Shown piece by piece: positions 1,106 through 32,198 of a DNA stretch of 32,198 nucleotides. This DNA is from a virus. Location: positions 1 through 32,198 of IMG/VR virus record IMGVR_UViG_3300047550_004232; one strand, 5' to 3'. Both the position numbers and the translations under genes were made by a program. The notes beneath the pieces are model-generated. The model did not search any database, was not told the DNA's origin, and was given only the letters and a program-made list of their open reading frames with translations. Each line of letters begins with the position of its first letter. Within the stretch, counting starts at the first letter, position 1.

Positions 1106-2340
1106 ATAAACAAATAACAGTTCAAGGTTTCACCCCGACACTCAAACAAAAAGAGATTATTGAGGCTTGCTTATCACAAGGTGTAAAGTATATCATCGGG
1201 TGTTTTGGAAGACAGGTAGGTAAATCATTTACTGCGATGAACCTACTACTCAAGTGGGGACTTGAAGATAATGGTTCGGTAAGTATGTGGGTGTCTCCTG
1301 TTTATTCACAAGCAAAAAAAGTATTCACCGAACTTACCAATACAATAGCGGGGACAGGACTTACCAAGTCAGTCAATAAGAGCGAACTAACAATAACATT
1401 CATCAACGGGTCTGTAATCTATTTCAGGTCAGGGGAACGAGAAGATACTTTGCGTGGATACACATTAGATTACTTGATTATGGATGAAGCGGCATATCAA
1501 AGGGAAGGAGTTTGGAAGACAGTATTGAGACCAACCGTATTGGTTAGAGGTAAGAAAGTATTATTCATATCCACACCAAAGGGAAAGAACTGGTTTCACA
1601 ATATTGCGATGAGAGGTTATAGTGAAGAATACCCCCAATACAAAACATTCCACGCCACATCATTTGATACACCATACATTACCGAAGAAGAATTGATTGA
1701 AGCAAAGTTGTCCCTACCTGAAACAATTTACAAACAAGAAATCTTAGCAGAGTTTATAGATGATGGTGGGGAAGTTTTTGGTTCCTTAAAGAATCTGTGT
1801 GTATTGAATCAATATCCACAACAAGACCCAAACAAAAAATATTATGCTGGTCTCGATTTTGGTCGTCAAAATGACTACACCGTACTTACCATACTCAATT
1901 CAGAAGGAGAAATGGTTGATTTTTACAGGGAAAGACAAAAGAGTTGGGACATTATTATAAGTGAAGTCGTTGTTAAATTAAAGAAGTGGAGACCAGTATG
2001 TTTTGCTGAGGTCAACAGTATAGGTGATGTTCTATATGAGCAGATAAAAAAACAATACCCTTCCGTTCAACCATTTATAACAAATAGTGATAGTAAACAA
2101 AATATGATTGAAGATTTAATTATGGGTATGAATGAAAGTAAAATTAAACTACCATCACCAGACCTCAATACAGACCTATACAAGGAGTTATCTGTTTTTA
2201 CATATGAATACTCACCAAAGACAAGAAAGATTAAATACGGGTCTCCTAATGGGTTCCACGACGATTGTGTGATATCATTAGCACTCTCCTATCACTCTTA
2301 TAAGAAAAAAGCAAGTTATGGAACCTATGTTGTACGCTAA
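1102..2340 (+). CDS. terL: Terminase large subunit, copy 1
   Basis: A 412-residue packaging motor: N-terminal ATPase plus C-terminal RNase H-like nuclease that cuts concatemers and drives DNA into the prohead. Walker A is GRQVGKS at residues 36-42, Walker B is LIMDEA at about 125-130, and the coupling motif FISTPKGKNW is near 155. The nuclease carries LDFGRQNDYT near residue 250, FAEVNSIGD near 312 and the terminal acidic pair in GFHDDCVISL near 390. Length is normal for the family. The start overlaps the stop of the methyltransferase gene (ATGA). Compared with the copy at 30720-31958, substitutions concentrate in the ATPase half. Confidence 0.95.
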   Translation: MNKQITVQGFTPTLKQKEIIEACLSQGVKYIIGCFGRQVGKSFTAMNLLLKWGLEDNGSVSMWVSPVYSQAKKVFTELTNTIAGTGLTKSVNKSELTITFINGSVIYFRSGEREDTLRGYTLDYLIMDEAAYQREGVWKTVLRPTVLVRGKKVLFISTPKGKNWFHNIAMRGYSEEYPQYKTFHATSFDTPYITEEELIEAKLSLPETIYKQEILAEFIDDGGEVFGSLKNLCVLNQYPQQDPNKKYYAGLDFGRQNDYTVLTILNSEGEMVDFYRERQKSWDIIISEVVVKLKKWRPVCFAEVNSIGDVLYEQIKKQYPSVQPFITNSDSKQNMIEDLIMGMNESKIKLPSPDLNTDLYKELSVFTYEYSPKTRKIKYGSPNGFHDDCVISLALSYHSYKKKASYGTYVVR

Positions 2341-2713
2341 AGGTATATGTTGGATTGATGATTGTAGAATACCTTTTGTTGATGAGAAGGATAGTAATAA
2401 AGCATGTAAAAATAATTTAGAACAAGGAATATATAATACGCCGTGGATAAGTGGTTATTTTAAAAGAAAAGGGAGTGATGTTAAGGGTAGATTCCCCGCC
2501 AATATTCTTGTGTGTGATGATATGTTGAATGATGGTGTTATTAGTAAGTCTGTTAAAGGTAGAAACGATATAGGTAGTTCAACTTATGGTGGTAATTCGT
2601 TATTGAATAGTAAAACTAAAATGAATAATACAGATAGGGGTTTTAACGACAAAGGTTCTAACTCAAGATATTACGACATAGATAAGTGGTTCGATAACCT
2701 ATTAGAGTTGTGA
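2327..2713 (+). CDS. Orphan DNA-methylase central-segment protein, copy 1
   Basis: A 128-residue protein whose three conserved blocks are KGICWIDDCRIPF (start), GRFPANILVCDDMLNDG (about 55-75) and NSRYYDIDKWFDN (end). From memory of the family, these blocks occur in the middle, target-recognition-like part of phage N6/N4 DNA methylases. The catalytic DPPY-type motif and the downstream HPTVKP/SAM-binding motifs are absent here and in the flanking DNA. The ATG at 2327 is chosen over 2318 because it aligns with the starts of the other copies. It overlaps the large terminase stop by 14 bases. The region between the second and third blocks differs strongly between copies. Function is unknown; it could be a relic, a recombination handle or a small binding protein. 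Confidence 0.65.
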   Translation: MLYAKGICWIDDCRIPFVDEKDSNKACKNNLEQGIYNTPWISGYFKRKGSDVKGRFPANILVCDDMLNDGVISKSVKGRNDIGSSTYGGNSLLNSKTKMNNTDRGFNDKGSNSRYYDIDKWFDNLLEL

Positions 2714-2741
2714 ATAAATAAATGAAAAAAGATATTTCTAT
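2704..2741 (+). promoter_or_regulatory. GATATTT start-proximal motif, tail chaperone unit
   Basis: GATATTT at 2731-2737 follows an A6 run and ends 4 bases before the ATG at 2742. A TTG lies 20 bases upstream of the motif. The arrangement resembles a -33/-7 promoter of the Bacteroidota type placed so close that the transcript would be nearly leaderless. A translation enhancer is the alternative. Confidence 0.45.
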
Positions 2742-3434
2742 ATGATGACTTTTAAGTATAAAAACAAACAATACAAACTTGAAGAACCTACAGTTGAGAT
2801 GTGGTCTAAACTTGTTCTATTACAAGAATGGACTGATGAGCGTGAGTTTTGTGTAAAATTATTATCATTTACAACAGGACTTACCGAAGAAGAAATTGAA
2901 AATAGTGATTATTTAGAAGTAGTCAAAGTTGCTAATAAAATCTCCGCTTTTTTAAATGAAAATGGGGATAAGTTCTATAACGAGTTTGATTTCAACAATA
3001 AAAAGTATCGTTTCTTGGATTTACCAAATTTAACATTTGGTGAGTTCATAGACATAGACACATACCTATCAAAAGAACCCCACGAAAAGAAAAAGGAAAT
3101 GCCACTAATGATGGCTATGCTGTATCGTGAATTGGATGATAAAGGAAATTACATACCTTATAATTCAAAAGAATTACAAAAAAAGGCAGACGAGTTTAAA
3201 AAACTACCAGTCAAATATGTTAGAGGAGCAACCAATTTTTTTTTTCATTTAGAGAAAACCTTAAAAGGCAATTTTCAGGCCTCTTTTTGGCAAAACCTGA
3301 AATTGATGGCAAAGATGATTTGGATTCTCGTGAAATTTATTCCTTTGATAGGCATTGGGGCTGGTTCGCTACTCTTGTATCGTTGGCGAACGAAGATATT
3401 ACAAAAGTCGAAGAAATTACTACATATCCGTTAG
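2742..3434 (+). CDS. Tail assembly chaperone-like protein (zero-frame product)
   Basis: A 230-residue zero-frame reading; a second ATG follows at 2745. Residues 1-168 look like a genuine folded protein: FKYKNKQYKLEEPT start, acidic helical middle, LTFGEFIDIDTYL near 98. After the T10 run at 3236-3245 the zero frame turns into hydrophobic and basic residues (WILVKFIPLIGIGAGSLLLY) unlike the rest, whereas the -1 frame stays protein-like to 3529. This is the pattern of tail chaperone pairs made by frameshifting, or of a homopolymer error. It is the first gene after the packaging module. The family call is tentative. Confidence 0.6.
   Translation: MMTFKYKNKQYKLEEPTVEMWSKLVLLQEWTDEREFCVKLLSFTTGLTEEEIENSDYLEVVKVANKISAFLNENGDKFYNEFDFNNKKYRFLDLPNLTFGEFIDIDTYLSKEPHEKKKEMPLMMAMLYRELDDKGNYIPYNSKELQKKADEFKKLPVKYVRGATNFFFHLEKTLKGNFQASFWQNLKLMAKMIWILVKFIPLIGIGAGSLLLYRWRTKILQKSKKLLHIR
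3236..3245 (+). other. T10 run: probable frameshift or slippage site
   Basis: Ten consecutive T lie in frame as AAT TTT TTT TTT CAT. A one-base backward slip on U-UUU-UUU would join residues 1-168 of the zero frame to the open -1 frame ending at 3529, giving about 262 residues. No stop interrupts the -1 frame between the run and 3287. Ribosomal -1 frameshifting, polymerase slippage or a miscounted homopolymer would each give this picture. Confidence 0.55.
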
Positions 3435-3529
3435 TATTTGTTTTAAACTATTTAGCATATAGTAAAGACATAAATGATATAAGGAGAAGGGAACAACAGA
3501 AGGTTCAACAACAAATGAAATTCAGGTAA
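3242..3529 (+). CDS. -1 frame extension of tail chaperone-like gene
   Basis: Reading the -1 frame from the T10 run gives FSFRENLKRQFSGLFLAKP and then a plausible C-terminal domain with WGWFATLVSLANED and ITTYPLVFVLNYLAYSKD, ending in a basic tail (INDIRRREQQK). An independent ATG exists at 3287, but translation from there would drop the part joining the two domains. It stops 1 base before the next ATG at 3531. In other tail phages a G/GT pair made by frameshifting chaperones the tape measure; that role is inferred. Confidence 0.5.
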   Translation, partial: FSFRENLKRQFSGLFLAKPEIDGKDDLDSREIYSFDRHWGWFATLVSLANEDITKVEEITTYPLVFVLNYLAYSKDINDIRRREQQKVQQQMKFR

Positions 3530-3530
3530 T

Positions 3531-4076
3531 ATGGCAAACAGCGTAGGATATTATAACTATAAAAAAATCATGGACTTGCTCCGTCAATTGGCAGATTACC
3601 ACGAACAAATCCAATCGTGGGGATTTGGTGATGTGGAACAACTTATTTACCAAACGGAAATGAGATTAAAGCAAGAAAATACAGGGAATCAAGCACCCTT
3701 CTATCCTGCTATGTGGGTGATACCAGAATTAGCTAGAACAGATGGAAAAGAAACAACATACGAGTTCAATATTCTAATCATGGATATTGAAAATGTTAAA
3801 AACTTTGAAAACGAACTCGATACCTATTCTGATACATTAGACATTCTTAAAGATGTAATCGCTCAACTCAAATACGCAACAGGGATGGAGTGTTATTGTA
3901 ATTTAGATATTGATTACCCTATTGATATGACCCCTTTTGGTGAAGCATATGATGATTATGTAAATGGTTGGTCGGGTAAAATTAGGCTCAGAGTTCCTGA
4001 TGCTATAAATAGGTGTATTGCTCCTTATTCAGCATTCCCCCCTTGTGATAATAACAGCGATGGAAACAGCGAGTAA
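3531..4076 (+). CDS. Probable head-tail or tail completion protein
   Basis: A 181-residue protein (MANSVGYYNYKKIMDLL start) with an alternating beta-strand middle (FYPAMWVIPELAR, TTYEFNILIMDIEN) and a C-terminus rich in Cys, Pro and Asp. Size and position, immediately before an HK97 gp10-like gene and overlapping it by 17 bases, suggest a tail terminator or neck component. No diagnostic motif is recognised, so the role rests on context. Confidence 0.5.
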   Translation: MANSVGYYNYKKIMDLLRQLADYHEQIQSWGFGDVEQLIYQTEMRLKQENTGNQAPFYPAMWVIPELARTDGKETTYEFNILIMDIENVKNFENELDTYSDTLDILKDVIAQLKYATGMECYCNLDIDYPIDMTPFGEAYDDYVNGWSGKIRLRVPDAINRCIAPYSAFPPCDNNSDGNSE

Positions 4077-4632
4077 TTATAAGTTTTATTCTTTCCAAAA
4101 AATACCAAAGCCGAAATTTGATGAGGCTATGGAAAAACTTGCTATGGATTTCCAAAATGCTTTAAAAGATAATTTGGCAAAACCATATCCATATGCTCCA
4201 GGTTATTTTGGTCAAAAAGCTCCAACAGGTATTAGAAATATGACCAAAAAAACTGGTGCTTTATATAATTCTATAAAGGTATCATTTGACTCAAATACAA
4301 ATAGAATTAAAATCAATATGTTAAATTATTGGAAATATGTAAATGATGGAAGACAGCCAGGAAAATATGTACCATTAAAACCTTTGATGGATTGGATAAA
4401 AGACAAAGGATTAAACAGAGATACGAAAGGTAGATTCAAAAAGTTCAATATTAAGGCAACAGCTTTTGCTATATCATCTTCAATACAAAAATTTGGTATC
4501 AAACCTACCAATTTTTATGATAATAGTTTTGATGTTTTTATAAGTTCATTTGATGACCCCAAAGGCCCAGCAGCACAACTTGGTCTTGACCTTCAAGAAT
4601 TTTTAATCAAAATAATACAACAACCAGAATAA
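4060..4632 (+). CDS. HK97 gp10-like neck/tail component
   Basis: About 190 residues from the ATG at 4060; an upstream TTG at 4018 would add 14 residues and deepen the overlap with the previous gene, so ATG is preferred. The segments TKKTGALYNSIKVSF, YWKYVNDGRQPGKYVP, PLMDWIKDKGL and AISSSIQKFGIKPTNFYDNS follow the layout of HK97 gp10-type proteins, which help close the head-tail joint. The extended RNMTKKTGALYNSI and FGIKP segments are typical of that family. The gene ends one base before the next ATG. Confidence 0.65.
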   Translation: METASNYKFYSFQKIPKPKFDEAMEKLAMDFQNALKDNLAKPYPYAPGYFGQKAPTGIRNMTKKTGALYNSIKVSFDSNTNRIKINMLNYWKYVNDGRQPGKYVPLKPLMDWIKDKGLNRDTKGRFKKFNIKATAFAISSSIQKFGIKPTNFYDNSFDVFISSFDDPKGPAAQLGLDLQEFLIKIIQQPE

Positions 4633-4633
4633 A

Positions 4634-6241
4634 ATGAGTGTAATAATAAATGTAGAACAATCACCACTAACAATTACCCCAAGTAATGGTGAGCATATCT
4701 ATACTATTTCATCAACAGGATATACCTTACAAAACTTTAAGTTTGTAGTGGATATATATTTCAGACCAGATAGTATAAACTTTTCAGGTTCTCCACAACC
4801 TACAGCCAGACTCAAGGTTCGTCCAAACTCCTATGGTAGAGCAATAATCGAGTTGGAAGAAATCGTTAGAACCTTTTTAAAAGCTAACCCTCGTTTCTCG
4901 GGGACAACATATCCGTATCTAAATTATGTGGCACAAGAAAACTCTGTTCTTACTATGAGTGATGCTACAAATACAAGAACCTTGAATGCTTATAATTTAT
5001 GGCCTACAGGAGACCTAAATGCTGACCTACCTGTACTTTGGCATGTAGAACAATATCAAGTTAAAGTTGGATGTGAATATGAAGACACGAATACAAACTC
5101 TATTGTATTAGATATGGATTTATTAGCATCATATCAACCAGCAGCAGTCAATATTTTTCCTGGTGTGGATAACAAACTTATACCATCACCATACCTTTCA
5201 GGAGCAACACTTGGTTCAGGTTATACACAATCCCCAAACTTTTATCAGGTAAATAATCAGTCGTGGTATTATTATGATTTGTTTAGACACATTTATCAAC
5301 AGGGAGAGGACACGACTTGTGGGCCTCGTGAGTTCTTAAATGCTGCTGGCAGAGAATATAAGACAATCTCTCAAGGTGGTTTCGTATCACAAAGGGTAAG
5401 AAGAAGACAACATCACCCTGACTGTCCTATAATCATATCTTTCCTTGATGGACAGAATGATTATTTCAATAACCAAACAACAAGAGTAGTTGTGAGAGGA
5501 GCTGATACACAAAGTGATAACTACACCTATTCTGCTTACACAGCAAACAACTCAACAATTACAAATAACTACGATATTTGGAAACAAGCTGTTTTTTATA
5601 TGCCATGGAACATTACACAATCAGGAACGAATGTGATTCCACAAGATGCTCAAAAACTATGTTTTTATTTAACATCAGGTACTAACATGAACTTTTCGGC
5701 AAGGACAAGTGAAATCCTTGAATTTTATATGATTGACCCTGACTGTATCAACCAACCAATTCACCTTCTTTTCTTAAATGGAAGGGGTATGTGGGACACT
5801 TATACATTTGGTAAGAAATCTACCAAGACATTTGAGGTAGAAAGAAAATCATATAGACAAGAAAGCTCATTAGACAAACAATATTATTCAAGAGGAGCAT
5901 ATCAAAGAGGAACAACAATTTACGAACAAAACGCTTCTTATAAAATTGAATGTATGTCTGATTTCATGACTGATGAAGATACTGTTGTTGTGGAAGAAAT
6001 CTTCAACTCACCTGAAGTATATATTATAGAAGGGACAACTGAAATGATTGACCCTTGTGCTCAACCTGATATAGAAGATTGCCAGTCTTGTTTAGGTGAG
6101 ATAAGACAATACCAATACCTTTTACCTGTTGTTTTGGAAAACAGAGAACTCAAAAAGTTCCAAAGACAATATCAAAAGATATTCCAATACACATTCACAT
6201 TACAATATGCTGATGTAAAGAGATACAGAACACAAGGATAA
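4634..6241 (+). CDS. Tail/baseplate structural protein
   Basis: A 535-residue, beta-rich protein without signal peptide or membrane segments. The N-terminal part (IINVEQSPLTITPSNG) looks like a virion beta-domain. ARLKVRPNSYGRAIIELEEIVRTFL near 57 and the C-terminal YQYLLPVVLENRELKKFQRQYQ followed by FQYTFTLQYADVKRYRTQG are distinctive but not assignable to a named family. A paired-Cys stretch (PDIEDCQSCLG) lies near 478. It sits between neck genes and the large adhesion proteins, so a distal-tail or baseplate role is inferred from order alone. Confidence 0.5.
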   Translation: MSVIINVEQSPLTITPSNGEHIYTISSTGYTLQNFKFVVDIYFRPDSINFSGSPQPTARLKVRPNSYGRAIIELEEIVRTFLKANPRFSGTTYPYLNYVAQENSVLTMSDATNTRTLNAYNLWPTGDLNADLPVLWHVEQYQVKVGCEYEDTNTNSIVLDMDLLASYQPAAVNIFPGVDNKLIPSPYLSGATLGSGYTQSPNFYQVNNQSWYYYDLFRHIYQQGEDTTCGPREFLNAAGREYKTISQGGFVSQRVRRRQHHPDCPIIISFLDGQNDYFNNQTTRVVVRGADTQSDNYTYSAYTANNSTITNNYDIWKQAVFYMPWNITQSGTNVIPQDAQKLCFYLTSGTNMNFSARTSEILEFYMIDPDCINQPIHLLFLNGRGMWDTYTFGKKSTKTFEVERKSYRQESSLDKQYYSRGAYQRGTTIYEQNASYKIECMSDFMTDEDTVVVEEIFNSPEVYIIEGTTEMIDPCAQPDIEDCQSCLGEIRQYQYLLPVVLENRELKKFQRQYQKIFQYTFTLQYADVKRYRTQG

Positions 6242-6244
6242 TAT

Positions 6245-9521: not shown

Positions 9522-10055
9522 ATGGCATTTGTATATACACCCACTCCCACGCCGAGCAACACTCCAACGATTAGTTTGACCCCGTCAATCAGTCCAACGA
9601 TTACTGCTACGAGTACTGTTTGTCCTGGTTTAACCCCTACAGCAACATCAATCACCCCCACGCCTACGCCAACCATGACTCAAATGACTCCCACACCAAC
9701 CATGACTCAAACAAGTACCCCACAAATAACTCCAAGCAGTACTCCGAGTTTATCTGAATTGTTCGTTTATGCCAAATATGTAAATGCTGAGAATATTTTA
9801 CAGTATCAAGTAAATTATGGTTCTTATGAAATCATAGGAAATATTGATAGTTTAACATGCCAATATTTTTATACTATTACTGGTCTTAGCGTTGGAGATA
9901 TAGTTGATTTCACAACTAATTCTACTTGTATTTTAGCTTTAGATACGCCTCCAGCAAGTTGTCCTAATTCAGGTTTTGCTTGTAATCAAACATATGTTTT
10001 TCCTGGTGGAAGCAATTATGTATATATAACCGTAGATGGTTCAAATTGTTGTTAA
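9522..10055 (+). CDS. Short Thr-Pro linker adhesion protein
   Basis: A 177-residue protein: residues 1-78 are almost entirely Thr-Pro-Ser repeats (TPTPTPSNTPTISLTPSI start), residues 80-177 a small beta-domain with six or seven Cys (ELFVYAKYVNAENILQYQV, SLTCQYFYTITG, ending SNCC). It has no signal peptide. The next gene starts at the base after its stop. The domain resembles in style the small Cys beta-domains of the neighbouring proteins, so it is likely a detachable or accessory adhesion module. Function is inferred only from layout. Confidence 0.55.
   Translation: MAFVYTPTPTPSNTPTISLTPSISPTITATSTVCPGLTPTATSITPTPTPTMTQMTPTPTMTQTSTPQITPSSTPSLSELFVYAKYVNAENILQYQVNYGSYEIIGNIDSLTCQYFYTITGLSVGDIVDFTTNSTCILALDTPPASCPNSGFACNQTYVFPGGSNYVYITVDGSNCC
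9537..9752 (+). repeat. Thr-Pro codon repeat tract (short linker protein)
   Basis: About 215 bases of TP/SP/TMTP-coding units. ACTCCCACACCAACCATGACTC-like stretches repeat nearly exactly within it at about 9675-9710. Confidence 0.75.
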
Positions 10056-12410
10056 ATGAGTATAAATAGATTGAGAATTAGTCCTACACCAAGTAATACA
10101 TCGACGAACACACCGACGATTACAGCATCTTTGACTGCTTGTCCCACAAACACCCCCACCAATACTGCTACTCCGACGATGACTCCAACTAATACAGCCA
10201 CAAACACACCTACGGAAACTATGGTTCCAACTCCTACAACTACAACTACAACCACACCAACTTTCACTCCTACTAATACGACAACTCCTACTTTCACACC
10301 TACTAATACAGCAACTCCTACTTTCACGCCTTCACCTACGATGACCCCTACACCTTGTATATGTTTCCCAAGTGGTTCAGGATTTACCCAATCGGGTACC
10401 TTCAACTTTGATATTTTATCATTAGCATTAGACCAATCAAGAAATAGAATGTATGTCGGGGGTGATATGTTCCAATATAACGGTACGCCTATCCGTTATT
10501 TTACAGCACTTGACCTTACAACAAGTAATATAGTTGGTAGTCCATTCAACACAACTGGTTTAACAAACGGGTATGTTGTGGATATTCAAGTACAACCTGA
10601 CGGAAATGTCTTATTAGGTGGAGCATTCACAACCTATAGTGGTGTTTCTCAAAACAGGCTAACAAGAGTTCTACCTTCAGGATTTAGAGATACAACATTT
10701 AACATAGGAACAGGTTTTAATGCTCAAGTTGAAAGTATATTAGTAGATAGTAATAACAAGATACTTGTTGTTGGTTCATTTAGTACATTCAATGGAAATA
10801 ACAAAGGTGGTATTGTTAGATTGAATAGTGATGGTTCAATAGATACAACATTTAGTGGTCTTACAACAGGTTTTGCTCCTACAGCAGGTATATTCCCATT
10901 TGTAAATGAAATCCAAGAATATAACAACCAATACTATGTTGCTGGTAATTGGAACACATATAATGGTTCAGTTGTTCCTGATGTTGTTAGATTGAACCAA
11001 GATGGTTCGTTAGATACCACATTTAGTGCTATAACTTATTCAGCAGCGACAAGAGTTATTGCTCTTGGTATACAAAGCACAGGTAAAGTTGTTGTAGCAG
11101 ATAACGGTGTTATAGACAGATTACTTACAACAGGTGCTAAAGACACTACATTTACAGCCACAACAGCATTTGCAGAAGTTGATGTTATAAAGATACTTCC
11201 GAGTGATAAAATACTTGCTGGTGGTAGAATATTCTCTCACGGAATAAGAAGGGTAAATGTAAATGGTGGTTTAGATACAGGATTTACAACAACTATGACC
11301 TTCATAAATCAGCCAGGTAGAGGTGTAAGAGATATTGAAATAACTGATGATTGTTATTTCATAGGTGGTGATTGGAGTGAATTGAATGGATTTGTAGGTA
11401 CAGACATAGCCCGTATATATTCTAATGGTAATTTGGATATATGTAATCCTGTTCCTATAACTCCTACCCCTTCTATAACTGCTACAAGGACTTCCACACC
11501 TACAATGACTCCTACGAGAACAGCAACACCTTCCATAACAAGTACAAACACACCAACTATCACAAAAACTCCTACGATGACCCCCACACCTACCCAACCA
11601 TGTTGCTCAGCATTTATGATATCATTTAGTGGTGTCCCTGATGCTGATTATATAACATGGTATAATTGTAGTGGGGTACAACAAACAGGTTATACAAACT
11701 CTTATCTGAACTTTATAGTTTATCACGATAATAGTTTTGGTTCAATATTCGTACACCAAGCATCTGGTTATGTAATTACTAATCTTGGTTGTGTTTGTAA
11801 TTCAACTTGTAATCAAATCAACATTACGGGTATAAGCGGACAAGGGACTTTCTATATTGATTGTAATGGTAATATTCAAACTCCTAATACACCTGTAAGT
11901 ATATGTGCTGATGGTTCACAAAGTTCAGGTTTTGACTTACCAATTACATTTGGTGATGTTACTGGCTTTACTGTGTCTATTGAGTGTTGTGCTTCACCCA
12001 CACCTACCCCAAGTATTACTTCTACTTCTACACCAACTTTCACATCAACTCCTACCAACACTCCTACGAATACTTTAACACCTGAAATCACAACCACACC
12101 AACGACAACCCCCACACCTACCAAGAATTGTCCTGCTACAATCTATACACACGGAGCGTTGAGAGCAAATTGTAGTGATTTCTGTACTACAAACTATTTG
12201 ATACAGGTTGAAGATTGTGCTTCACAAAACTACGCTGGCTTAACTATTGGTGATTTCATTTATGGCTACGCAGGTCAAAGTGGTTATCTGGCTTACTCAA
12301 ATATTTCAACAGACACAGCAACAGGCCCATTCCGTATAGCAGACATAGATGGTACAGGTGAGATACTTGGAATCTATGTTTGTAGTGGAGGGTCTTGTAT
12401 TCCATTATAA
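10056..12410 (+). CDS. Multidomain tail adhesin: Thr-Pro linkers and seven-unit beta-propeller
   Basis: A 784-residue protein of four parts joined by linkers: Thr-Pro tract (9-100), beta-propeller (about 105-465), Thr-Pro tract (466-515), Cys beta-domain (515-645, AFMISFSGVPDADYITWYNC), Thr-Pro tract (646-690) and a C-terminal Cys domain (691-784). The propeller shows seven delta-60 (DUF5122-like) units, for example QPDGNVLLGGAFTTYSG, DSNNKILVVGSFSTFNG and NSDGSIDTTFSG. Propellers of this kind bind ligands or surfaces. The gene abuts the preceding stop. An exposed host-binding fibre is the likeliest role, by inference. Confidence 0.65.
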   Translation: MSINRLRISPTPSNTSTNTPTITASLTACPTNTPTNTATPTMTPTNTATNTPTETMVPTPTTTTTTTPTFTPTNTTTPTFTPTNTATPTFTPSPTMTPTPCICFPSGSGFTQSGTFNFDILSLALDQSRNRMYVGGDMFQYNGTPIRYFTALDLTTSNIVGSPFNTTGLTNGYVVDIQVQPDGNVLLGGAFTTYSGVSQNRLTRVLPSGFRDTTFNIGTGFNAQVESILVDSNNKILVVGSFSTFNGNNKGGIVRLNSDGSIDTTFSGLTTGFAPTAGIFPFVNEIQEYNNQYYVAGNWNTYNGSVVPDVVRLNQDGSLDTTFSAITYSAATRVIALGIQSTGKVVVADNGVIDRLLTTGAKDTTFTATTAFAEVDVIKILPSDKILAGGRIFSHGIRRVNVNGGLDTGFTTTMTFINQPGRGVRDIEITDDCYFIGGDWSELNGFVGTDIARIYSNGNLDICNPVPITPTPSITATRTSTPTMTPTRTATPSITSTNTPTITKTPTMTPTPTQPCCSAFMISFSGVPDADYITWYNCSGVQQTGYTNSYLNFIVYHDNSFGSIFVHQASGYVITNLGCVCNSTCNQINITGISGQGTFYIDCNGNIQTPNTPVSICADGSQSSGFDLPITFGDVTGFTVSIECCASPTPTPSITSTSTPTFTSTPTNTPTNTLTPEITTTPTTTPTPTKNCPATIYTHGALRANCSDFCTTNYLIQVEDCASQNYAGLTIGDFIYGYAGQSGYLAYSNISTDTATGPFRIADIDGTGEILGIYVCSGGSCIPL
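10080..10356 (+). repeat. Thr-Pro codon repeat tract (adhesin, first linker)
   Basis: The longest such tract in the window. It includes near-identical tandem units coding TPTFTPTNT at about 10258-10330, so slippage or recombination here would change linker length without breaking the frame. Confidence 0.8.
11455..11599 (+). repeat. Thr-Pro codon repeat tract (adhesin, second linker)
   Basis: Units coding TPTMTPTRTATPSITST join the propeller to the first Cys beta-domain. It ends just before the CC pair that opens that domain. Confidence 0.75.
11995..12124 (+). repeat. Thr-Pro codon repeat tract (adhesin, third linker)
   Basis: Units coding TPTPSITSTSTPTFTSTPT separate the two C-terminal domains. 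The tract is bounded by Cys codons on both sides, like the second linker. Confidence 0.75.
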
Positions 12411-19259: not shown

Positions 19260-20414
19260 ATGAAAGGAAGAATAGACAAAAAGTTATGGGGTGTTTTGGG
19301 TAAGCAACAAACCTACTTCTCACCACAAAAACAAGTAGAAGGAAAAACGAAGGTAGCACTAAATGCTAATGCTTTTGATAGTTGGGACGCTAAAAGGTCA
19401 AGATTTAAGAGAGTTGATGGTTATGAGAATCGTATTCAACAACACGGAGTGGTACCTGAAATAAGTTCAGCACCTGTATCAAGTCCCACACCCACACCAA
19501 GTTTCACGCCTACACCAAGCTTCACTCCTACACAGACTATAACACCGTCAATTACTCCTTCATCAACACCTTTCCCAATAGTTCAACCTTCTTTATGGTT
19601 TGACGCATCTGATAGTTCAACTATGAACTTAATTTTATCGGGGGGAACGACTTATATATCTCAACTTACATCAAAGGGTACTGAAATTTGGACTTTAACA
19701 GGTCAGACAACAGATAGATACCCAACATATTCTGCTTCAACATCTTTACCTGGTAGTCCAAATATTATTAGATTTACTCCTAATGCTACAACAGGTTTGA
19801 GAAAAGCTTTGGTAGCATTTGATAGACCAACTTTAACACATACGGGTTCAACAATATTTATGGTTTGGTCTCAACCAGCAGGAACACCAGCATTTACAAA
19901 TCAGTTGTATTCTGGAAATACAAATGGTACTTTAGTTCAAGTTGGAAGTGATATTTTTGATAGATTACAGTTTGGTGGTTTTCAGGGTGCCACCAATATA
20001 ATAAATGCTAACGTTTATCCACAAAGTTCTACACAGGCTTCCACAATTCCTACACCATATACAGCAGCAACTATAAATGGTAAATATCTTATGAAAGCTG
20101 TTTTACCAGCTAATCCTGGTTTTGGAAGTTGGGAATTGAACCAATCAGGAGCAACGAGTTCATCACTATTTACAGGAACAACAGTAAGTCCGAGATGGAA
20201 CGCATTCAATCTTGGGTGTACATCAAATAACACAGGACAACTATTCGCTACAAATAGTAATATTGAGTTAGCTGAAATCATGATTTATAATCGAGAATTA
20301 TCACCTTCTCAACAAGAAGCAGTTGAACTCTATTTGAGAGATAAATGGAGGTATGATGAATGGGCTTCACCTGTTCCCACACCCACACCGACCCCAAGTC
20401 CTACGAGACCTTAA
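19260..20414 (+). CDS. Lectin-like (LamG/concanavalin-type) fibre protein with Thr-Pro linkers
   Basis: A 384-residue protein. A basic N-terminal domain (1-72: MKGRIDKKLWGVLGKQQTYF) probably anchors it to the virion. A Thr-Pro linker spans 75-105. A beta-sandwich domain (about 108-372) opens with PSLWFDASDSSTMNLILSGG and closes with AEIMIYNRELSPSQQEAVEL, the latter typical of LamG/concanavalin A-like carbohydrate-binding domains. A last short Thr-Pro tail ends the protein. The ATG follows CACATTTATTT just downstream of the terminator, so it probably has its own promoter. Host glycan binding is inferred from the fold. Confidence 0.65.
   Translation: MKGRIDKKLWGVLGKQQTYFSPQKQVEGKTKVALNANAFDSWDAKRSRFKRVDGYENRIQQHGVVPEISSAPVSSPTPTPSFTPTPSFTPTQTITPSITPSSTPFPIVQPSLWFDASDSSTMNLILSGGTTYISQLTSKGTEIWTLTGQTTDRYPTYSASTSLPGSPNIIRFTPNATTGLRKALVAFDRPTLTHTGSTIFMVWSQPAGTPAFTNQLYSGNTNGTLVQVGSDIFDRLQFGGFQGATNIINANVYPQSSTQASTIPTPYTAATINGKYLMKAVLPANPGFGSWELNQSGATSSSLFTGTTVSPRWNAFNLGCTSNNTGQLFATNSNIELAEIMIYNRELSPSQQEAVELYLRDKWRYDEWASPVPTPTPTPSPTRP
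19483..19575 (+). repeat. Thr-Pro codon repeat tract (lectin-like protein, linker)
   Basis: Units coding PTPTPSFTPTPSFTPTQT. Two adjacent copies of the unit coding SFTPTP are almost identical at the DNA level. Confidence 0.75.
20371..20411 (+). repeat. Thr-Pro codon repeat tract at protein C-terminus
   Basis: Codes the last 12 residues (PVPTPTPTPSPTRP) of the lectin-like protein. A linker with nothing after it suggests that a further domain has been lost, or that this is a junction used for domain gain. Confidence 0.65.
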
Positions 20415-20416
20415 AT

Positions 20417-20506
20417 ATGAATATTCTATTTATTCTTATAGACGATAAACTTGATGCTCACTATATAATAAGCGAAAATGTTGATAATAAGGAAGTCCCA
20501 AACTAA
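20417..20506 (+). CDS. Possible 29-residue peptide gene
   Basis: MNILFILIDDKLDAHYIISE then NVDNKEVPN and a stop, placed 2 bases after the lectin-like gene stop and 4 bases before the next ATG. The tight fit on both sides argues for translation as part of the operon. No family is recognised, and a spurious frame is quite possible at this length. Confidence 0.3.
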   Translation: MNILFILIDDKLDAHYIISENVDNKEVPN

Positions 20507-20510
20507 TAAT

Positions 20511-21308
20511 ATGATTGCTACGGTGTCTATGAATAAGACCCTACCCAATCCGTATTATTTGTTTTCATTCCAACATATAGCATCAAAGGAAAGAGTTAGT
20601 TTTTATCCACAGGTTATAACGAGTAATGTTCGTTATGATAAGTTTAGATTCGTTGAAGCACCAACTACAAATCTGTCTCTAACTCCACCACAAGTATTCT
20701 TTGAGTATTTGGGTCAATACTACTATTCCATTTATGAAAATATCACATCAGGTTCAACTGATATTAGTTTAGCTTATAATAAACTTGAAAGTGGTAGAGC
20801 ATGGGTTATCGTTGGTGATGATAATACTCAAGAATGTTTCTTTGAACCTTATATTTCTAATGATGAGGACTTTTCACAGGTTATTTATGTTTCTGAGCAG
20901 GAAGAAGCTTGTATCTACCCAACTCCGAGTATCACTCCGAGTCCAACTGGTACTCCAATAACCCCAAGTCCCACACCTACAATTACATTCACACCAACTC
21001 CGAGTTCAACACCACCAGTATTACCACCTATACAATTTTTGGTTCATTATGGGCCTTCTCAAAACTCAGCTTGTAATGGAACTCCAAACACATTTATCTA
21101 TGCTGCTGATTTGGGTAATTGTGCTCCATGTTTACCTCAAACCTGTTGGGCTTGTCTCAGTACTTCACAACAATTATTTGTCGATGCTAACTTGACTACA
21201 CCTGTGAGTAATGGTTATTATAAAAATGAGATGGCTGCTGGTGTAAGTGCTACTTGGCATGTTATCGGTGGATATCCACAAGGTGGTGGATTTATGGGAT
21301 GTCCGTAA
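20511..21308 (+). CDS. Virion protein with central Thr-Pro linker and C-terminal Cys domain
   Basis: About 265 residues from the ATG at 20511; an in-frame ATG at 20478 lies inside the preceding small frame and is less likely. The N-terminal domain (about 1-135: NPYYLFSFQHIASKERVSFY, VFFEYLGQYYYSIYE, GRAWVIVGDD) resembles small proteins found with Bacteroidota phage tail genes. A Thr-Pro linker (136-170) leads to a domain with many Cys (GNCAPCLPQTCWACLS) and an aromatic/Gly end (ATWHVIGGYPQGGGFMGCP). An exposed adhesion or decoration role is inferred. Confidence 0.5.
   Translation: MIATVSMNKTLPNPYYLFSFQHIASKERVSFYPQVITSNVRYDKFRFVEAPTTNLSLTPPQVFFEYLGQYYYSIYENITSGSTDISLAYNKLESGRAWVIVGDDNTQECFFEPYISNDEDFSQVIYVSEQEEACIYPTPSITPSPTGTPITPSPTPTITFTPTPSSTPPVLPPIQFLVHYGPSQNSACNGTPNTFIYAADLGNCAPCLPQTCWACLSTSQQLFVDANLTTPVSNGYYKNEMAAGVSATWHVIGGYPQGGGFMGCP
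20917..21019 (+). repeat. Thr-Pro codon repeat tract (portal-side linker protein)
   Basis: Units coding TPSITPSPTGTPITPSPTP. This is the last such tract in the window and the only one ending in a Pro-rich SSTPPVLPP stretch. Confidence 0.75.
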
Positions 21309-25991: not shown

Positions 25992-25998
25992 AAAAAAT

Positions 25999-26217: not shown

Positions 26218-26218
26218 T

Positions 26219-26740
26219 ATGAGTATAGAAAAAGAAGTATGGAGACAGATACCACAGTTTCCAAAGTATGCTGCTTCCAACGAAGGAAGAATAAAAAATA
26301 TCAGAACAGGTAAAATTAAAGAACAACACCTTGTTGATGTGAATAGAAAATATTTGAGAACAGGTTTCTATTCAAAAGGTAAGTTCTTTGTAAAAAAGGT
26401 ATCAAGAATCGTTTGGTCAGCATTTAATGATTGTGAGTGCCCACAAACAATCAATCACATCGACGGAGACCCAAGCAATAACAACATTACCAATTTGGAA
26501 TGTATTAGCATTAAGGAAAATTGTTCCAAGAAGCATATTTATAATAAAAAGAAAAATAAATATAACCTTGATGATAATAAGAAAAGGGATATACTCACAG
26601 CATACCAAAATAAAACAAAGTCCGTTTGGAAACTATCAATAGAGTATAAAATACCTCCAAATTATTTATACACAACTTTCAAAAGAGGGAGTTGGGATTA
26701 CCTATGTTGGAACAACGATACAAACAATACAGAGAATTAG
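26219..26740 (+). CDS. NUMOD4-HNH homing-type endonuclease
   Basis: A 173-residue free-standing nuclease. NUMOD4 is EVWRQIPQFPKYAASNEGRI with KN (7-28). The HNH_3 core is RIVWSAFN near 62 and TINHIDGDPSNNNITNLECI near 79-98. The usual VHR before the core reads VSR here, while the NHIDGD His and NN-NLE are kept. The C-terminal helices (LSIEYKIPPNYLYTTFKRG) look like a DNA-binding module. Such enzymes cut intron- or gene-less alleles and spread by repair. It overlaps the sigma-like gene by 37 bases. Confidence 0.75.
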   Translation: MSIEKEVWRQIPQFPKYAASNEGRIKNIRTGKIKEQHLVDVNRKYLRTGFYSKGKFFVKKVSRIVWSAFNDCECPQTINHIDGDPSNNNITNLECISIKENCSKKHIYNKKKNKYNLDDNKKRDILTAYQNKTKSVWKLSIEYKIPPNYLYTTFKRGSWDYLCWNNDTNNTEN

Positions 26741-27825: not shown

Positions 27826-27954
27826 ATGGCGAAATCAAAATCACCCTTGAGTAGTAGGAAGACAACCTTTGGAAAAAGAGCAAAAGGTTCTCCTGCTAAA
27901 TCGTATAATAAGCATACACCCCGTCCAAAAAAATACAGAGGACAGGGAAGATAA
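27826..27954 (+). CDS. Small basic protein (42 residues)
   Basis: MAKSKSPLSSRKTTFGKRAK then GSPAKSYNKHTPRPKKYRGQ and GR. It is extremely basic, with a C-terminal RPKKYRGQGR that resembles conserved tails of small nucleic-acid-binding phage proteins near terminase genes. It lies after the structured stretch and before the GIY-YIG gene. It may bind DNA or RNA during packaging. The strict Lys/Arg/Ser/Pro composition and ATG context support a real gene. Confidence 0.5.
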   Translation: MAKSKSPLSSRKTTFGKRAKGSPAKSYNKHTPRPKKYRGQGR

Positions 27955-27960
27955 TTTTTT

Positions 27961-27968
27961 TATATTTG
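27961..27968 (+). promoter_or_regulatory. Perfect TAnnTTTG -7 box before the GIY-YIG gene
   Basis: TATATTTG lies 4 bases before the ATG at 27973, preceded by a T6 run. It matches the Bacteroidota -7 consensus exactly, although no TTG is seen at -33. It would give the endonuclease gene its own nearly leaderless transcript. Confidence 0.4.
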
Positions 27969-27972
27969 GATT

Positions 27973-28737
27973 ATGTGGAATGTGTATAGACATATAAGAT
28001 TAGATAAAAATGAACCATTCTATATTGGAATTGGTAAAACAAAATATAGGGCTAAATCAAAATATAATAGGAGTATTTTTTGGCACAGAATAGTCAGCAA
28101 AACTGATTATGAAATAGATATTCTCTTTGATAATTTGACTTGGGAACAAGCAAAAGAAAAAGAAAAAGAGTTTATCAAATTGTATGGTAGGAGGGATTTG
28201 GGTTTAGGAACATTGGTGAATATGACTGATGGTGGTGATGGTAGTTTAGGTTTGAGTATCCCCCGTAATGAAAAATGGATTGAGAAGATTTCCAAATCTC
28301 AAAAAGGTAAGAAAAAAGACCCAAAGGTTATAGAAAAAGCGAGAATAACAAGATGGGGAAAAAATTACGAACCTGAATATAAAAAATTAAAAGAGAAAAA
28401 ATCACGAAAAGGTAGGGTTTTTAGTGAAGAGCATAAACTGAAACTTTCTTTATCTAGGAAAGGAATGAAGTTTAGTGAAGAACACAAACGCAAATTATCC
28501 CTTGCTAAAATCAAACCTGAAGACCAAAAATATAAAAGACCAGCAAGGCCACCAAGAGGTCATCAATTAGTAGGTAAAGTTGCTCAAAACGCAATCAAAA
28601 TAAAAGACCTTGAAACAGATTTAATCTATACGAGTATGAATGAATATATGATTAAAAACAAATTAAAATCATATAAAAAGATTTATAGCAAAATAAAAAA
28701 AGGAGAAATAATAAAACTATGCCAAGAAGTAGAGTAA
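27973..28737 (+). CDS. GIY-YIG homing endonuclease with NUMOD3 repeats
   Basis: A 254-residue nuclease. The GIY-YIG domain (1-95) shows VYRHIRLDKNEPFYIGIGKT, WHRIVSKTDYEIDILFDNLT and LVNMTDGGDGSLGL. Two NUMOD3 units, FSEEHKLKLSLSRKG and FSEEHKRKLSLAK (about 151-180), bind DNA. The C-terminal AIKIKDLETDLIYTSMNEYM is NUMOD1-like. This is a complete enzyme of the homing type, placed just upstream of the duplicated packaging module, whose local variability it could drive. It overlaps the next small gene by 19 bases. Confidence 0.85.
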   Translation: MWNVYRHIRLDKNEPFYIGIGKTKYRAKSKYNRSIFWHRIVSKTDYEIDILFDNLTWEQAKEKEKEFIKLYGRRDLGLGTLVNMTDGGDGSLGLSIPRNEKWIEKISKSQKGKKKDPKVIEKARITRWGKNYEPEYKKLKEKKSRKGRVFSEEHKLKLSLSRKGMKFSEEHKRKLSLAKIKPEDQKYKRPARPPRGHQLVGKVAQNAIKIKDLETDLIYTSMNEYMIKNKLKSYKKIYSKIKKGEIIKLCQEVE

Positions 28738-28919
28738 GGGGCGGAAGGAAAGCCCACAACAAAAGAGTTAAAGCAAGGAATGAAAAAATGAAAGACAAGT
28801 ATTGGGAGTTCGAAGCACTCAAAAGAAAGATTTATGAAGAAGCGAAGGCTCGATACGAACAAGAACAATTAAATAAAGAAATTAAAATTACAACAGATGA
28901 CGGACATAATAATTCCTGA
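28719..28919 (+). CDS. Small charged coiled-coil protein before small terminase
   Basis: A 66-residue protein: basic start MPRSRVRGGRKAHNKRVKAR, then a helix (YWEFEALKRKIYEEAKARYE) and an acidic end (TTDDGHNNS). It overlaps the GIY-YIG gene (19 bases) and the small terminase (23 bases). The left window edge carries the end of a second copy, so the gene belongs to both packaging modules. It may assist terminase DNA binding; unproven. Confidence 0.55.
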   Translation: MPRSRVRGGRKAHNKRVKARNEKMKDKYWEFEALKRKIYEEAKARYEQEQLNKEIKITTDDGHNNS

Positions 28920-28994
28920 TGATGATTTACCACTAACCCCTCCTGCTCCAAGACCAGCAGGAAGACCAAAAGGTTCATATGCTAAAAAGATGAC
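28888..28994 (+). repeat. Exact direct repeat, right copy (partner 1-107)
   Basis: Identical to the first 107 bases of the window, offset 28887. If the contig is a wrapped circle, this offset is the genome length for the variant without the module 2 inserts. Confidence 0.9.
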
Positions 28995-29364
28995 GGATGT
29001 TGAAAAAAGAACATTCATCAACAACGCTGCTCGTGAGATACTTGAAAACCATTTATCTTATGGTGAGTTTGTTAAATGGGCAAAAGATAATGCTAACCTA
29101 TCCAAATCACAAGCAAACGAATATTGGGGTAGAGTATGGGTATTGTTGAAGAAAAAGTTTGAGTTGGAAAAAGACAAACTAATCTTGAAACATACACAGA
29201 AGTATTGGGACATTTACGAACAAGCACTTATTCAAGGAGACCTAACAAATGGAAGACAAGCATTAAATGACTTGGCTAAACTACAAGGTCTAAATGAACC
29301 AGATAAAGTCCATATTACAGGGACACAAATAAAATTAAACTTTGGGGAACCTAATGTGGAGTAA
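28897..29364 (+). CDS. terS: Terminase small subunit, copy 2
   Basis: A 155-residue version of the protein at 10-474. About 11 residues differ, mostly conservative (K to R, V to I, S to N), with a one-residue insertion near the C-terminus (PNVE against PNE), while many codons differ silently. This indicates both copies have been under selection. It overlaps the following orphan methylase-segment gene by 11 bases, where copy 1 instead overlaps FkbM. Confidence 0.8.
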   Translation: MTDIIIPDDDLPLTPPAPRPAGRPKGSYAKKMTDVEKRTFINNAAREILENHLSYGEFVKWAKDNANLSKSQANEYWGRVWVLLKKKFELEKDKLILKHTQKYWDIYEQALIQGDLTNGRQALNDLAKLQGLNEPDKVHITGTQIKLNFGEPNVE

Positions 29365-29746
29365 GGCTATTTGTTGGATTGACGATTGTAGAATACCTTT
29401 TGTAGATAGTGATGATATCAAATCTGCTACACCAGGTTCCTTGAATGCCACAGGGGAGTTCAGTTTGTTTGGTTTTAAGAGTGGTAATCAATTAAACAAT
29501 CAAGGTAGATTTCCTGCTAACATTCTTGTAAGTGATGATATGTTGAATGATGGTTTAATTTACAAATCAGGAAAAGGTCATCCGCATCATAAAAGGAATA
29601 AAACATTAGGCGAATATCAAGGAAACGCTTATGGTAAGTTCAATAATGTAAATCCCCAAATAAATTATGAAAATTATTATGGAGACAAAGGAACTAACAG
29701 CAGATACTACGACATAGATAAATGGTTTGATAAAATAATAGAATGA
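29354..29746 (+). CDS. Orphan DNA-methylase central-segment protein, copy 2
   Basis: About 130 residues from the ATG at 29354; a TTG at 29342 would add four residues. It carries the three family blocks SKAICWIDDCRIPF, GRFPANILVSDDMLNDG and NSRYYDIDKWFDKI. The regions between blocks share little with the other copies (for example PGSLNATGEFSLFGFKSG and GHPHHKRNKTLGEYQGNA). The stop overlaps the next methyltransferase start (ATGA), so it is embedded in the packaging operon. It lacks catalytic and SAM-binding motifs. Confidence 0.65.
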   Translation: MWSKAICWIDDCRIPFVDSDDIKSATPGSLNATGEFSLFGFKSGNQLNNQGRFPANILVSDDMLNDGLIYKSGKGHPHHKRNKTLGEYQGNAYGKFNNVNPQINYENYYGDKGTNSRYYDIDKWFDKIIE

Positions 29747-30342
29747 ATTACCTACAAGAATTACTCAACAGAACTCTAATAAAAAACTTTGATGCGGGTA
29801 CCAATAACTTTGAGCATGTACTAACATTCTTTTCAATTGCTCTACAGATTAGAGCAAAGAACATATTGGAATTAGGTGTTAGAGAAGGTGGTTCAACATT
29901 TCCATTTCTTGTAGCATCAAAAGAGTTGGGGGGACTTACAACATCAATAGATATCAATACCCCAATCTTTAATTGTCCTGATGACCTACGACCTTATTGG
30001 ACTTTTATACAGACAGACGCAATAACTTACCTACAATCAATCACAGAATTTAAGTATGATTTGATTTATGTTGATGACTGGCATTCAGCATTACAGGTAA
30101 GAACGGAACTTGAACTTATAGACAAAATCTCCACACCAAATACTATAATCTTACTACATGATACTATGCCTAACTCTGTACCAAACTATTCTTTAACATA
30201 CAAGATGGGGGATGAATGGGCAGGTGGAGGCCCATACAAAGCACTTCTTGAACTCGATATGGATAAGTGGGAATATGCTACCATACCTGTAAATCACGGC
30301 TTAACAATTCTTCGTAAGAAGGGGGAAGTAAAAATCAAATAA
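29743..30342 (+). CDS. Class I SAM-dependent methyltransferase (CmcI/Methyltransf_24 type)
   Basis: A 199-residue protein with motif I KNILELGVREGGSTFPFL near 39-56, the acidic strand end TTSIDIN near 68, YDLIYVDDWHSALQVRTEL near 105-123 and IILLHDTMPN near 135. This is the cephalosporin hydroxylase/Methyltransf_24 pattern, different from the FkbM enzyme in module 1. The acceptor is unknown; sugars or small metabolites are likelier than DNA. It is flanked on both sides by orphan methylase-segment genes, with a 4-base overlap and a 1-base gap. Confidence 0.8.
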   Translation: MNYLQELLNRTLIKNFDAGTNNFEHVLTFFSIALQIRAKNILELGVREGGSTFPFLVASKELGGLTTSIDINTPIFNCPDDLRPYWTFIQTDAITYLQSITEFKYDLIYVDDWHSALQVRTELELIDKISTPNTIILLHDTMPNSVPNYSLTYKMGDEWAGGGPYKALLELDMDKWEYATIPVNHGLTILRKKGEVKIK

Positions 30343-30343
30343 G

Positions 30344-30727
30344 ATGTATAGTAAAGGTATTTGTTGGATTGATGATTGTAGGATTCCATTTGCTGAAAAT
30401 GATGATGAGAGAATTGATAAAGGTTATAGTTGGAATAGCAAAGCGGAACCATTTGGTGAAGGAAATACAATACAAAATAAACTTGGTTGGAATACACAAG
30501 GTAGATTTCCCGCTAATATCCTTGTCTGTGATGATATGTTGAATGATGGAGTTATTAGTAAAAGTGGAAATAACAAAATGAGGAGTAGTGAAGGTTTTAA
30601 TAAAAACGCATATGGGATTGGTATAGGGGTGAAAGTTGGGGATAATAATGGTGAATATGGAGATAAAGGAACAAATAGCAGATATTACGACATAGATAAA
30701 TGGTTTGATAAGATATTAAATGATTAA
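30344..30727 (+). CDS. Orphan DNA-methylase central-segment protein, copy 3
   Basis: A 127-residue copy with SKGICWIDDCRIPF, GRFPANILVCDDMLNDG and NSRYYDIDKWFDKIL. The variable parts are again distinct (WNSKAEPFGEGNTIQNKLGW; FNKNAYGIGIGVKVGDNN). Its start (MYSKGICW) fixes the likely start of the whole family. The last 8 bases overlap the start of the second large terminase gene. Confidence 0.65.
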   Translation: MYSKGICWIDDCRIPFAENDDERIDKGYSWNSKAEPFGEGNTIQNKLGWNTQGRFPANILVCDDMLNDGVISKSGNNKMRSSEGFNKNAYGIGIGVKVGDNNGEYGDKGTNSRYYDIDKWFDKILND

Positions 30728-31958
30728 ACAACTAACAGTACAAGGTTTTACCCCAACCAAAAAACAAAAAGAAATTATAGATGCTTGTATGAGACAAGAC
30801 ATCAAATATGTTGTTGGTTGTTTTGGAAGACAGGCTGGTAAATCATTTACTGCTATGAATCTACTTCTCAAATGGTCTTTGGAAGATAACGGGTCAGTAT
30901 CTATGTGGGTATCACCAGTATATTCACAAGCAAAAAAAGTATTTACAGAACTCACCAATACCATAGCAGGAACAGGACTCACAAAGTCAATCAACAAATC
31001 TGAACTAACCATAACCTTTATAAATGGGTCTGTGATGTATTTTAGAAGTGGTGAAAGGGAAGATACTTTGAGAGGTTATACTCTAAACTATCTTGTTGTT
31101 GATGAAGCAGCATACATCAAAGATAATGTGTGGATTGAAGTACTACGACCAACAGTTCTTGTAAATGGTAAGAAGGTATTATTCATTTCAACACCAAAAG
31201 GCAAGAACTGGTTTCATCAGGTAGCACTACGAGGTATGAGTGATGAATACCCCCAATACAAAACATTCTTTGCTACATCGTTTGATACTCCATATATCAC
31301 ACATGAAGAGTTAGAAGAAGCCAAGATGTCTTTACCTGAAACGATTTATAAACAAGAAATCTTAGCAGAGTTTATAGATGATGGGGGTGAAGTATTTGGT
31401 TCATTAAAAAACTCTTGTGTATTGAATCAATATCCACAACATGAACCTTCTAAAAAATATTATGCTGGTCTCGATTTTGGTCGTCAAAATGATTACACAG
31501 TACTAACCATACTCAATTCAGAAGGAGAAATGGTTGATTTTTACAGGGAAAGACAAAAGAGTTGGGACATCATTATTTCAGAAGTGGTTGTTAAATTGAA
31601 GAAATGGAGACCAATATGTTTTGCTGAAGTGAATAGTATAGGAGATGTATTATACGAACAGATTAAAAAACAATATCCATCCGTTCAACCATTTATAACC
31701 AATAGTGATAGTAAGCAGAACATGATTGAAGATTTGATTATGGGTATGAATGAAAGTAAAATCTTACTACCATCACCAAACCTCAATACAGACCTATATA
31801 AGGAGTTATCTGTTTTTACATACGAATACTCACCAAAGACGAGAAAGATTAAATATGGGTCTCCTAATGGGTTCCACGACGATTGTGTGATATCATTAGC
31901 ACTCTCGTATCACTCTTATAAGAAAAAAGCAAGTTATGGAACCTATGTTGTACGCTAA
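30720..31958 (+). CDS. terL: Terminase large subunit, copy 2
   Basis: A 412-residue paralogue or strain variant of the protein at 1102-2340. All motor and nuclease motifs are kept: GRQAGKS (36-42), LVVDEA (about 125-130), FISTPKGKNW, LDFGRQNDYT, FAEVNSIGD, GFHDDCVISL. By eye about 40 residues differ, nearly all before residue 245; the nuclease half has three changes and nearly identical DNA. This sharp contrast suggests recombination within the gene. It starts inside the previous small gene and is followed by the fourth orphan methylase-segment gene. Confidence 0.95.
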   Translation: MIKQLTVQGFTPTKKQKEIIDACMRQDIKYVVGCFGRQAGKSFTAMNLLLKWSLEDNGSVSMWVSPVYSQAKKVFTELTNTIAGTGLTKSINKSELTITFINGSVMYFRSGEREDTLRGYTLNYLVVDEAAYIKDNVWIEVLRPTVLVNGKKVLFISTPKGKNWFHQVALRGMSDEYPQYKTFFATSFDTPYITHEELEEAKMSLPETIYKQEILAEFIDDGGEVFGSLKNSCVLNQYPQHEPSKKYYAGLDFGRQNDYTVLTILNSEGEMVDFYRERQKSWDIIISEVVVKLKKWRPICFAEVNSIGDVLYEQIKKQYPSVQPFITNSDSKQNMIEDLIMGMNESKILLPSPNLNTDLYKELSVFTYEYSPKTRKIKYGSPNGFHDDCVISLALSYHSYKKKASYGTYVVR

Positions 31959-32198
31959 AGGTATATGTTGGATAGATGATTGTAGAATACCTTTTGTTGA
32001 TGAGAAGGATAGTGATAAAGCATGTAAAAATAATTTAGAACAAGGGATATATAATACGCCGTGGATAAGTGGTTATTTCAAGAGAAAAGGGAGTGATGTT
32101 AAGGGTAGATTCCCCGCAAATATTCTTGTAAGTGATGATATGTTAAATGATGGGGTTATTAGTAAATCACAAGATAACATTAGGAACAATACATTAAA
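31945..32198 (+). CDS. Orphan DNA-methylase central-segment protein, copy 4 (cut by window end)
   Basis: The first 84 codons are present. Up to the block GRFPANILVSDDMLNDG it is nearly identical to copy 1, including the variable part KACKNNLEQGIYNTPWISGY. After VISKS the two diverge (QDNIRNNTL against VKGRNDIGSS). So the switch from identical to different sequence occurs inside the gene, at the second conserved block. It overlaps the large terminase stop by 14 bases, the same geometry as copy 1. Confidence 0.65.
   Translation, partial: MLYAKGICWIDDCRIPFVDEKDSDKACKNNLEQGIYNTPWISGYFKRKGSDVKGRFPANILVSDDMLNDGVISKSQDNIRNNTL

Follow-up and report, generated by a model that had tools for sequence, protein, structure and literature searches.

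The window analysed here is a 32,198-nucleotide (nt) stretch of viral DNA (IMG/VR record IMGVR_UViG_3300047550_004232) that carries four small genes, called T in this work. T is very likely the detached target-recognition subunit of a split beta-class (N6-adenine/N4-cytosine) DNA methyltransferase, and a methyltransferase lacking this segment (M) is encoded next to T in related phages. We observed a precise partition of the enzyme between M and T, linkage and overlap of the two genes, co-variation of the T framework with M, shuffling of the variable parts of T, and purifying selection.

T proteins and the methylase segment they match

Each T protein consists of three framework blocks and two variable modules (V1 and V2). 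The four window open reading frames (ORFs), all on the plus strand, carry the blocks in frame, as an earlier sequence-only reading had described. The first (2327-2713) is complete and lies behind terL, with its blocks at codons 7-17, 54-70 and 112-122 and an ATG also in frame at 2318; it shares V1 with locus L009 and V2 with L009, L063 and L088. The second (29354-29746, with a possible TTG start at 29342) stands between terS and a Methyltransf_24 gene; its V1 recurs in L024, L041, L064 and L065, and its V2 in L040 and L048. The third (30344-30727) stands between the Methyltransf_24 gene and terL, and the fourth (31945-32198) is cut by the contig end. Copies 1, 2 and 4 have a possible in-frame start 9-12 nt further upstream. 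The three complete window proteins have 127-130 amino acids (aa) and share approximately 46-53% pairwise identity, with unrelated V regions. They have no catalytic or S-adenosylmethionine (SAM) motif and are homologous only to the central segment of methylases. T has no curated family: neither Pfam (up to E=1) nor NCBIfam gave a match for the window proteins, PHROGs gave marginal matches only (E 0.24-0.63), and a PDB sequence search with T alone and with a T profile found no credible match.

The sequence-only reading had claimed that the blocks belong to phage DNA methylases, and the alignments bear this out. In the single-chain methylase of Bacillus phage BSP18 (MH707433), M aligns to positions 11-207 and 339-402 and T to 214-325; the window copy at 30344-30727 is 42% identical to the centre of this enzyme over 116 aa. 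In two methylases from bacterial and archaeal metagenome-assembled genomes (MAGs; L127 and L128), T fills positions 156-270 and 216-336 respectively, exactly between positions 199 and 202 of the M profile. The single-chain enzymes of sister phages have T in the same gap (M position ~200); these phages, whose terL is 66-89% identical to that of the window, have the single-chain gene beside terS or terL (L139, L147, L174, L178 and L183). T is thus a homologue of the piece that separates the two halves of the single-chain enzymes, and it complements a neighbouring M that lacks it, this M being found in related phages and not in the window itself. Beta-class enzymes have the motif order IV to VIII, target-recognition domain (TRD), X, I, and the T segment therefore falls in the place expected for the TRD. 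One archaeal MAG methylase (L126, 4983-6143) has the framework blocks with V1 and V2 almost absent, a minimal recognition segment.

M is a methyltransferase of 275-454 aa that precedes the T genes in these loci. It retains all catalytic motifs, in the order IV (DPPY), X (HPTVKP) and SAM motif (DPFGGSGTTG), and passes straight from SYIDKVLNF to EALPDNIKMTYP, without the T segment. The M of L016 matches PF01555 (E=3e-29, 103 bits, cutoff 26.7). A structural model of M of moderate confidence (predicted local distance difference test, pLDDT, 63; predicted template modelling score, pTM, 0.56) matched beta-class enzyme structures with Z 16-19, among them TTHA0409 (Z 18.7), CcrM (Z 17.9) and M.MboIIA (Z 17.5-18.7 for the three). 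On its PF01555 match and motif order M is a beta-class amino DNA methyltransferase; the Pfam matches of M include no C5 methylase family, and it is not half of a naturally split C5 enzyme. A second, different PF01555 methylase (of the SPPYADIVNYGKN type) is encoded just upstream of M in many loci (e.g. L009 791-1798, L011 625-1428, L312 1327-2274), and its L009 copy has a C-terminal NUMOD1 match.

Gene linkage, module shuffling and selection

A search of IMG/VR with one window T copy gave 51 loci, in which all matches were stand-alone ORFs of 92-151 aa or were cut by contig ends. A T profile search gave 187 relatives, 80 of which were kept. The 86 non-redundant viral loci contain 140 intact T ORFs, nine cut by contig ends and one short (L055). 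Stand-alone copies are consequently not rare, frameshifted or confined to this assembly; they are numerous, intact and spread over scores of independent contigs. Most T proteins have 110-151 aa, with ~127 aa (~13-15 kDa) typical. The short ORF (L055 1224-1502, 92 aa) has an in-frame V2 deletion that joins block 2 straight to block 3. Two apparent stand-alone copies near terS, in L129 and L170, were rejected as truncated single-chain enzymes. The scanned GTDB genomes yielded no T relatives and only three relatives of M, two of which are single-chain enzymes that include the full T segment. Among phage isolates, the window T query matched the BSP18 single-chain enzyme only and two other T queries matched nothing; one T query gave no match in plasmids. 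Thus none of the curated families searched contains the split M/T form, and the queries used did not retrieve it from phage isolates, plasmids or cellular genomes.

M was present in 69 of the 86 T loci, and in others it lay at the far contig end. In the reverse search, T was next to M in 76 of 80 loci fetched with M; three were cut by contig ends, and in the remaining one (L293) M is followed by an HNH gene, after which the contig stops. No viral ORF fusing M and T was found in either set of loci. The two genes overlap by 4 nt (37 cases), 23 nt (20), 1 nt (6) or 14 nt (4), and consecutive T genes mostly by 14, 8 and 11 nt. L312 has the order M-T-T-T-T-terL with ATGA coupling at each step, and the longest array, of five T genes (L065), has its M at the opposite end of the same 31 kb contig. 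Within one array V1 was never redundant and V2 once (61 pairs). A few loci have an HNH gene that separates M from T. More generally, repeated insertion of HNH-like and other homing-endonuclease-like genes is seen at this junction or in the terS-terL interval (L110 5544-6005, L108, L293 4007-4495, L154, L155). Elsewhere an HNH-like endonuclease gene splits M itself into two ORFs, within its variable segment V0 (see below; L024 2155-3664, L104 1124-2704). The parts have 133/149 aa and 213/218 aa, the new ends are alike in these two distant loci, and the broken M is possibly a three-part methylase.

V1 and V2 families were defined at 55% identity among 105 unique T proteins. The 62 V1 and 46 V2 families occur in 100 combinations, where free association predicts 102 ± 1.6, and V1 and V2 similarities are uncorrelated (-0.01). 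Nearly all recurrent V1 families (22/24) are found with two or more V2 families, as are all recurrent V2 families (20/20) with two or more V1 families. The modules also occur inside single-chain enzymes (V1 in 21/56, V2 in 15/56, at up to 91% identity), where 119 of 122 matches are type-faithful and three are of the wrong type. Across 41 M-T pairs, similarity of the framework tracks that of M (Mantel r = 0.78, p = 0.0005), but similarity of V1 and V2 does not (r = 0.04 and 0.05).

The ratio of nonsynonymous to synonymous change (dN/dS) is 0.17 for V1 and 0.23 for V2 within module families (0.24 and 0.27 in the closest pairs), and 0.07-0.16 in the blocks. This range (0.07-0.27) agrees with the proposal of the sequence-only reading that the T ORFs encode small proteins under selection, and their origin from the central, target-recognition part of phage DNA methylases is supported as well. 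Among the roles it had offered, that of specificity subunit or methylase partner fits best, an M lacking exactly this segment being encoded next door outside the window. It had also suggested that these genes may serve as recombination handles. In the blocks, synonymous sites have diverged strongly (pS 0.50-0.65) but dN/dS is low; what is conserved is therefore the protein and not the DNA, and handles were rejected as the main cause of this conservation. Exchange at the block edges does occur, as V1/V2 shuffling.

Proposed mechanism, the window genome and alternative explanations

We propose that the ancestral single-chain enzyme carried the segment KGISWIDDCRIPF...NSRYYDIDKWFD between motif VIII and motif X. 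This segment would have been cut out precisely, with M closed up at the SYIDKVLNF-EALPDNIKMTYP junction, and would have become a gene of its own, translationally coupled behind M. M and T would form a complex, with the framework blocks as the probable contact, while V1 and V2 would read the DNA. With tandem T genes a single M would have access to several specificities, and new ones would arise as V1 and V2 are exchanged among T genes and with single-chain enzymes; the purpose would probably be methylation of phage DNA against host restriction. It is reasonably likely that these phages possess in this way a plug-in methylation system, in which an array of interchangeable recognition subunits serves one TRD-less beta-class M in a given infection. 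With two independently shuffled half-modules in each subunit, few parts would give many specificities.

Several points weigh against this interpretation. The window genome is without M, and the mechanism may not operate there. The non-redundancy of arrays is not significant on its own, as approximately 1-3 repeats are expected by chance. Co-inheritance could explain the link between framework and M as well as contact could. AlphaFold modelled T alone poorly (pLDDT 48.6), and the model hence gives no fold or docking backing for a complex. Finally, M retains two more variable segments, V0 after IDKR and V3 before HPTVKP, which are also exchanged with single-chain enzymes, and part of the specificity may therefore lie in M.

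Self-comparison of the window revealed that 1-469 repeats at 28888-29356 (88% nt identity) and 1100-2547 at 30718-32165 (86%). The window is longer than one genome length, and its end is a strain variant of its start. Because the contig laps its own genome, T copies 1 and 4 count as two strain alleles of a single locus; the four copies of the sequence-only reading are all real. Over 227 nt these two alleles show 96% identity, which falls to 21% in the 33 nt that directly follow the second block; they share V1 and appear to differ in V2, the deviating 33 nt being the last bases of the contig. The gene order is terS - FkbM methyltransferase - terL - T in lap A and terS - T - Methyltransf_24 - T - terL - T in lap B, all on the plus strand. 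The probable small-terminase gene terS, assigned by position (28897-29364 in lap B, 10-474 in lap A), overlaps T at 29354. This T overlaps the Methyltransf_24-type gene (29743-30342) by 4 nt at 29743. In lap A, terL (1102-2340) overlaps T at 2318/2327. In lap B, terL (30720-31958) is overlapped by T on either side: T 30344-30727 overlaps its start, and its end overlaps T at 31936/31945. The coupling by overlap to terS, terL or a methyltransferase that the sequence-only reading had noted is therefore confirmed, but the neighbouring methyltransferases, the FkbM-type (467-1105, 83% nt identity to L129) and the Methyltransf_24-type, are not DNA methylases. Its overall interpretation holds in part, the partner gene, the contig lap and the tandem arrays having been missing from its picture.

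In the window genome M would have been displaced by unrelated cargo, and the T genes either act with an M from a co-infecting phage, a prophage or the host, or have been recently stranded. The second case, in which other methyltransferase cargo has taken the place of M in a former M-T operon and the window T genes are left as relics with no present function in this phage, is a serious contender, although we rate it somewhat below even. TRD-less M was not found anywhere in the window contig; the Methyltransf_24-type gene sits where M stands in T-M-T loci (L008, L074, L076), and FkbM or Methyltransf_24 genes fill the terS-terL slot in relatives. However, three complete T frames are intact and share framework and modules with M-bearing loci, and three separate insertions by terS or terL have been kept, each overlapping or abutting its neighbours, although short-term intactness would still be compatible with relics.

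Other explanations concern T in general. T copies could mainly be a silent store that supplies V1 and V2, by copying, to an expressed enzyme, as with silent hsdS cassettes, no action of the protein being needed. Free recombination of V1 and V2, modules common to single-chain enzymes, T placed at several sites around terS and terL, and the apparently sharp V2 swap in the allele pair of the window are all consistent with this. By contrast, starts and stops are intact, with coupling overlaps at M-T and T-T junctions, dN/dS is far below 1 in all parts, and split loci offer no complete enzyme as a copy target, M being without the segment; we consider this explanation unlikely. Still less probable is a function of T independent of its own methylase, as an anti-restriction decoy binding DNA or a host methylase, or as a TerS/TerL helper. 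T is coupled to terS and terL in the window, and also in L016 and L048, but nearly all T genes are coupled to M, the single case of M without T is explained by a contig end, and T coupled to terL is the tail of M-T arrays, or rare. That T is a set of methylase-gene fragments from chimeric assembly is barely credible, because although this contig laps its genome and contains strain variants, scores of independent contigs from many metagenomes show the same T and M-T arrangement with conserved junctions.

If T is indeed a detached recognition subunit, these loci would be a compact natural case of specificity as an exchangeable ~13-15 kDa subunit for a beta-class DNA methyltransferase, and would explain a quick change of methylation patterns against restriction in small phages. 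The 62 V1 and 46 V2 modules with their single-chain counterparts would be a natural data set for decoding recognition, and the system a modular tool for targeted DNA methylation. Annotation overlooks it, since T has no curated family and M resembles an ordinary methylase.

Among the other features of the region, the terS-terL interval is an exchange slot. In the window it contains the FkbM-type gene in lap A and the Methyltransf_24-type gene in lap B, and in close relatives it may be empty or hold an FkbM-type gene, a Methyltransf_24-type gene, a homing endonuclease, M-T or unknown ORFs (e.g. L129, L141-L143). Two homing-endonuclease-like genes lie just upstream of terS in the window (27973-28737 and 26219-26740). 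Several predicted proteins contain long Thr/Pro/Ser repeats (TPTPTPS; window 9522-12410 and 19260-21308).

Comparison with known systems

The open-access literature gave no account of recognition domains of beta-class phage methylases that are split off or stand alone, nor of such detached segments in arrays. The nearest relatives are the single-chain phage beta-class methylases (PF01555; BSP18, L139, L147, L174), with the same motifs and the same mid-chain T segment including blocks and V1/V2. In those enzymes the segment is part of one chain, whereas here it is encoded apart, by one or more genes, and the catalytic chain has closed over the gap. The multispecific C5 methyltransferases of Bacillus phages, which serve anti-restriction, combine one catalytic core with several recognition domains, with C5 chemistry and in one chain.

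Exchange of recognition parts also occurs in systems of separate methylase and specificity (S) subunits, where S, which serves gamma-class enzymes, is larger and contains two complete recognition domains. Unlike an S subunit, T has ~127 aa, no Pfam match, corresponds to an excised beta-class segment and occurs in tandem arrays of up to five; the window proteins are not of the HsdS type (Methylase_S), at 127-130 aa vs. ~400 aa with two recognition domains. The M-T pair nevertheless resembles Type I HsdM/HsdS and the Type IIB/IIG/IIH systems with a separate S (BcgI, BsaXI, M.AhdI) in having separate catalytic and specificity polypeptides from coupled genes, and two variable recognition parts between conserved parts (PMC4081073). 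Type IIG enzymes are gamma-class (PMC4081073), and the hsdM and hsdS genes of EcoKI overlap by 1 nt (PMC3510504). The naturally split C5 enzymes M.AquI and M.EcoHK31I likewise distribute one methyltransferase chain over two polypeptides, but they are C5-cytosine enzymes, the parts split off are motifs IX or IX-X and not the recognition segment alone, and they form no arrays (PMC3404938).

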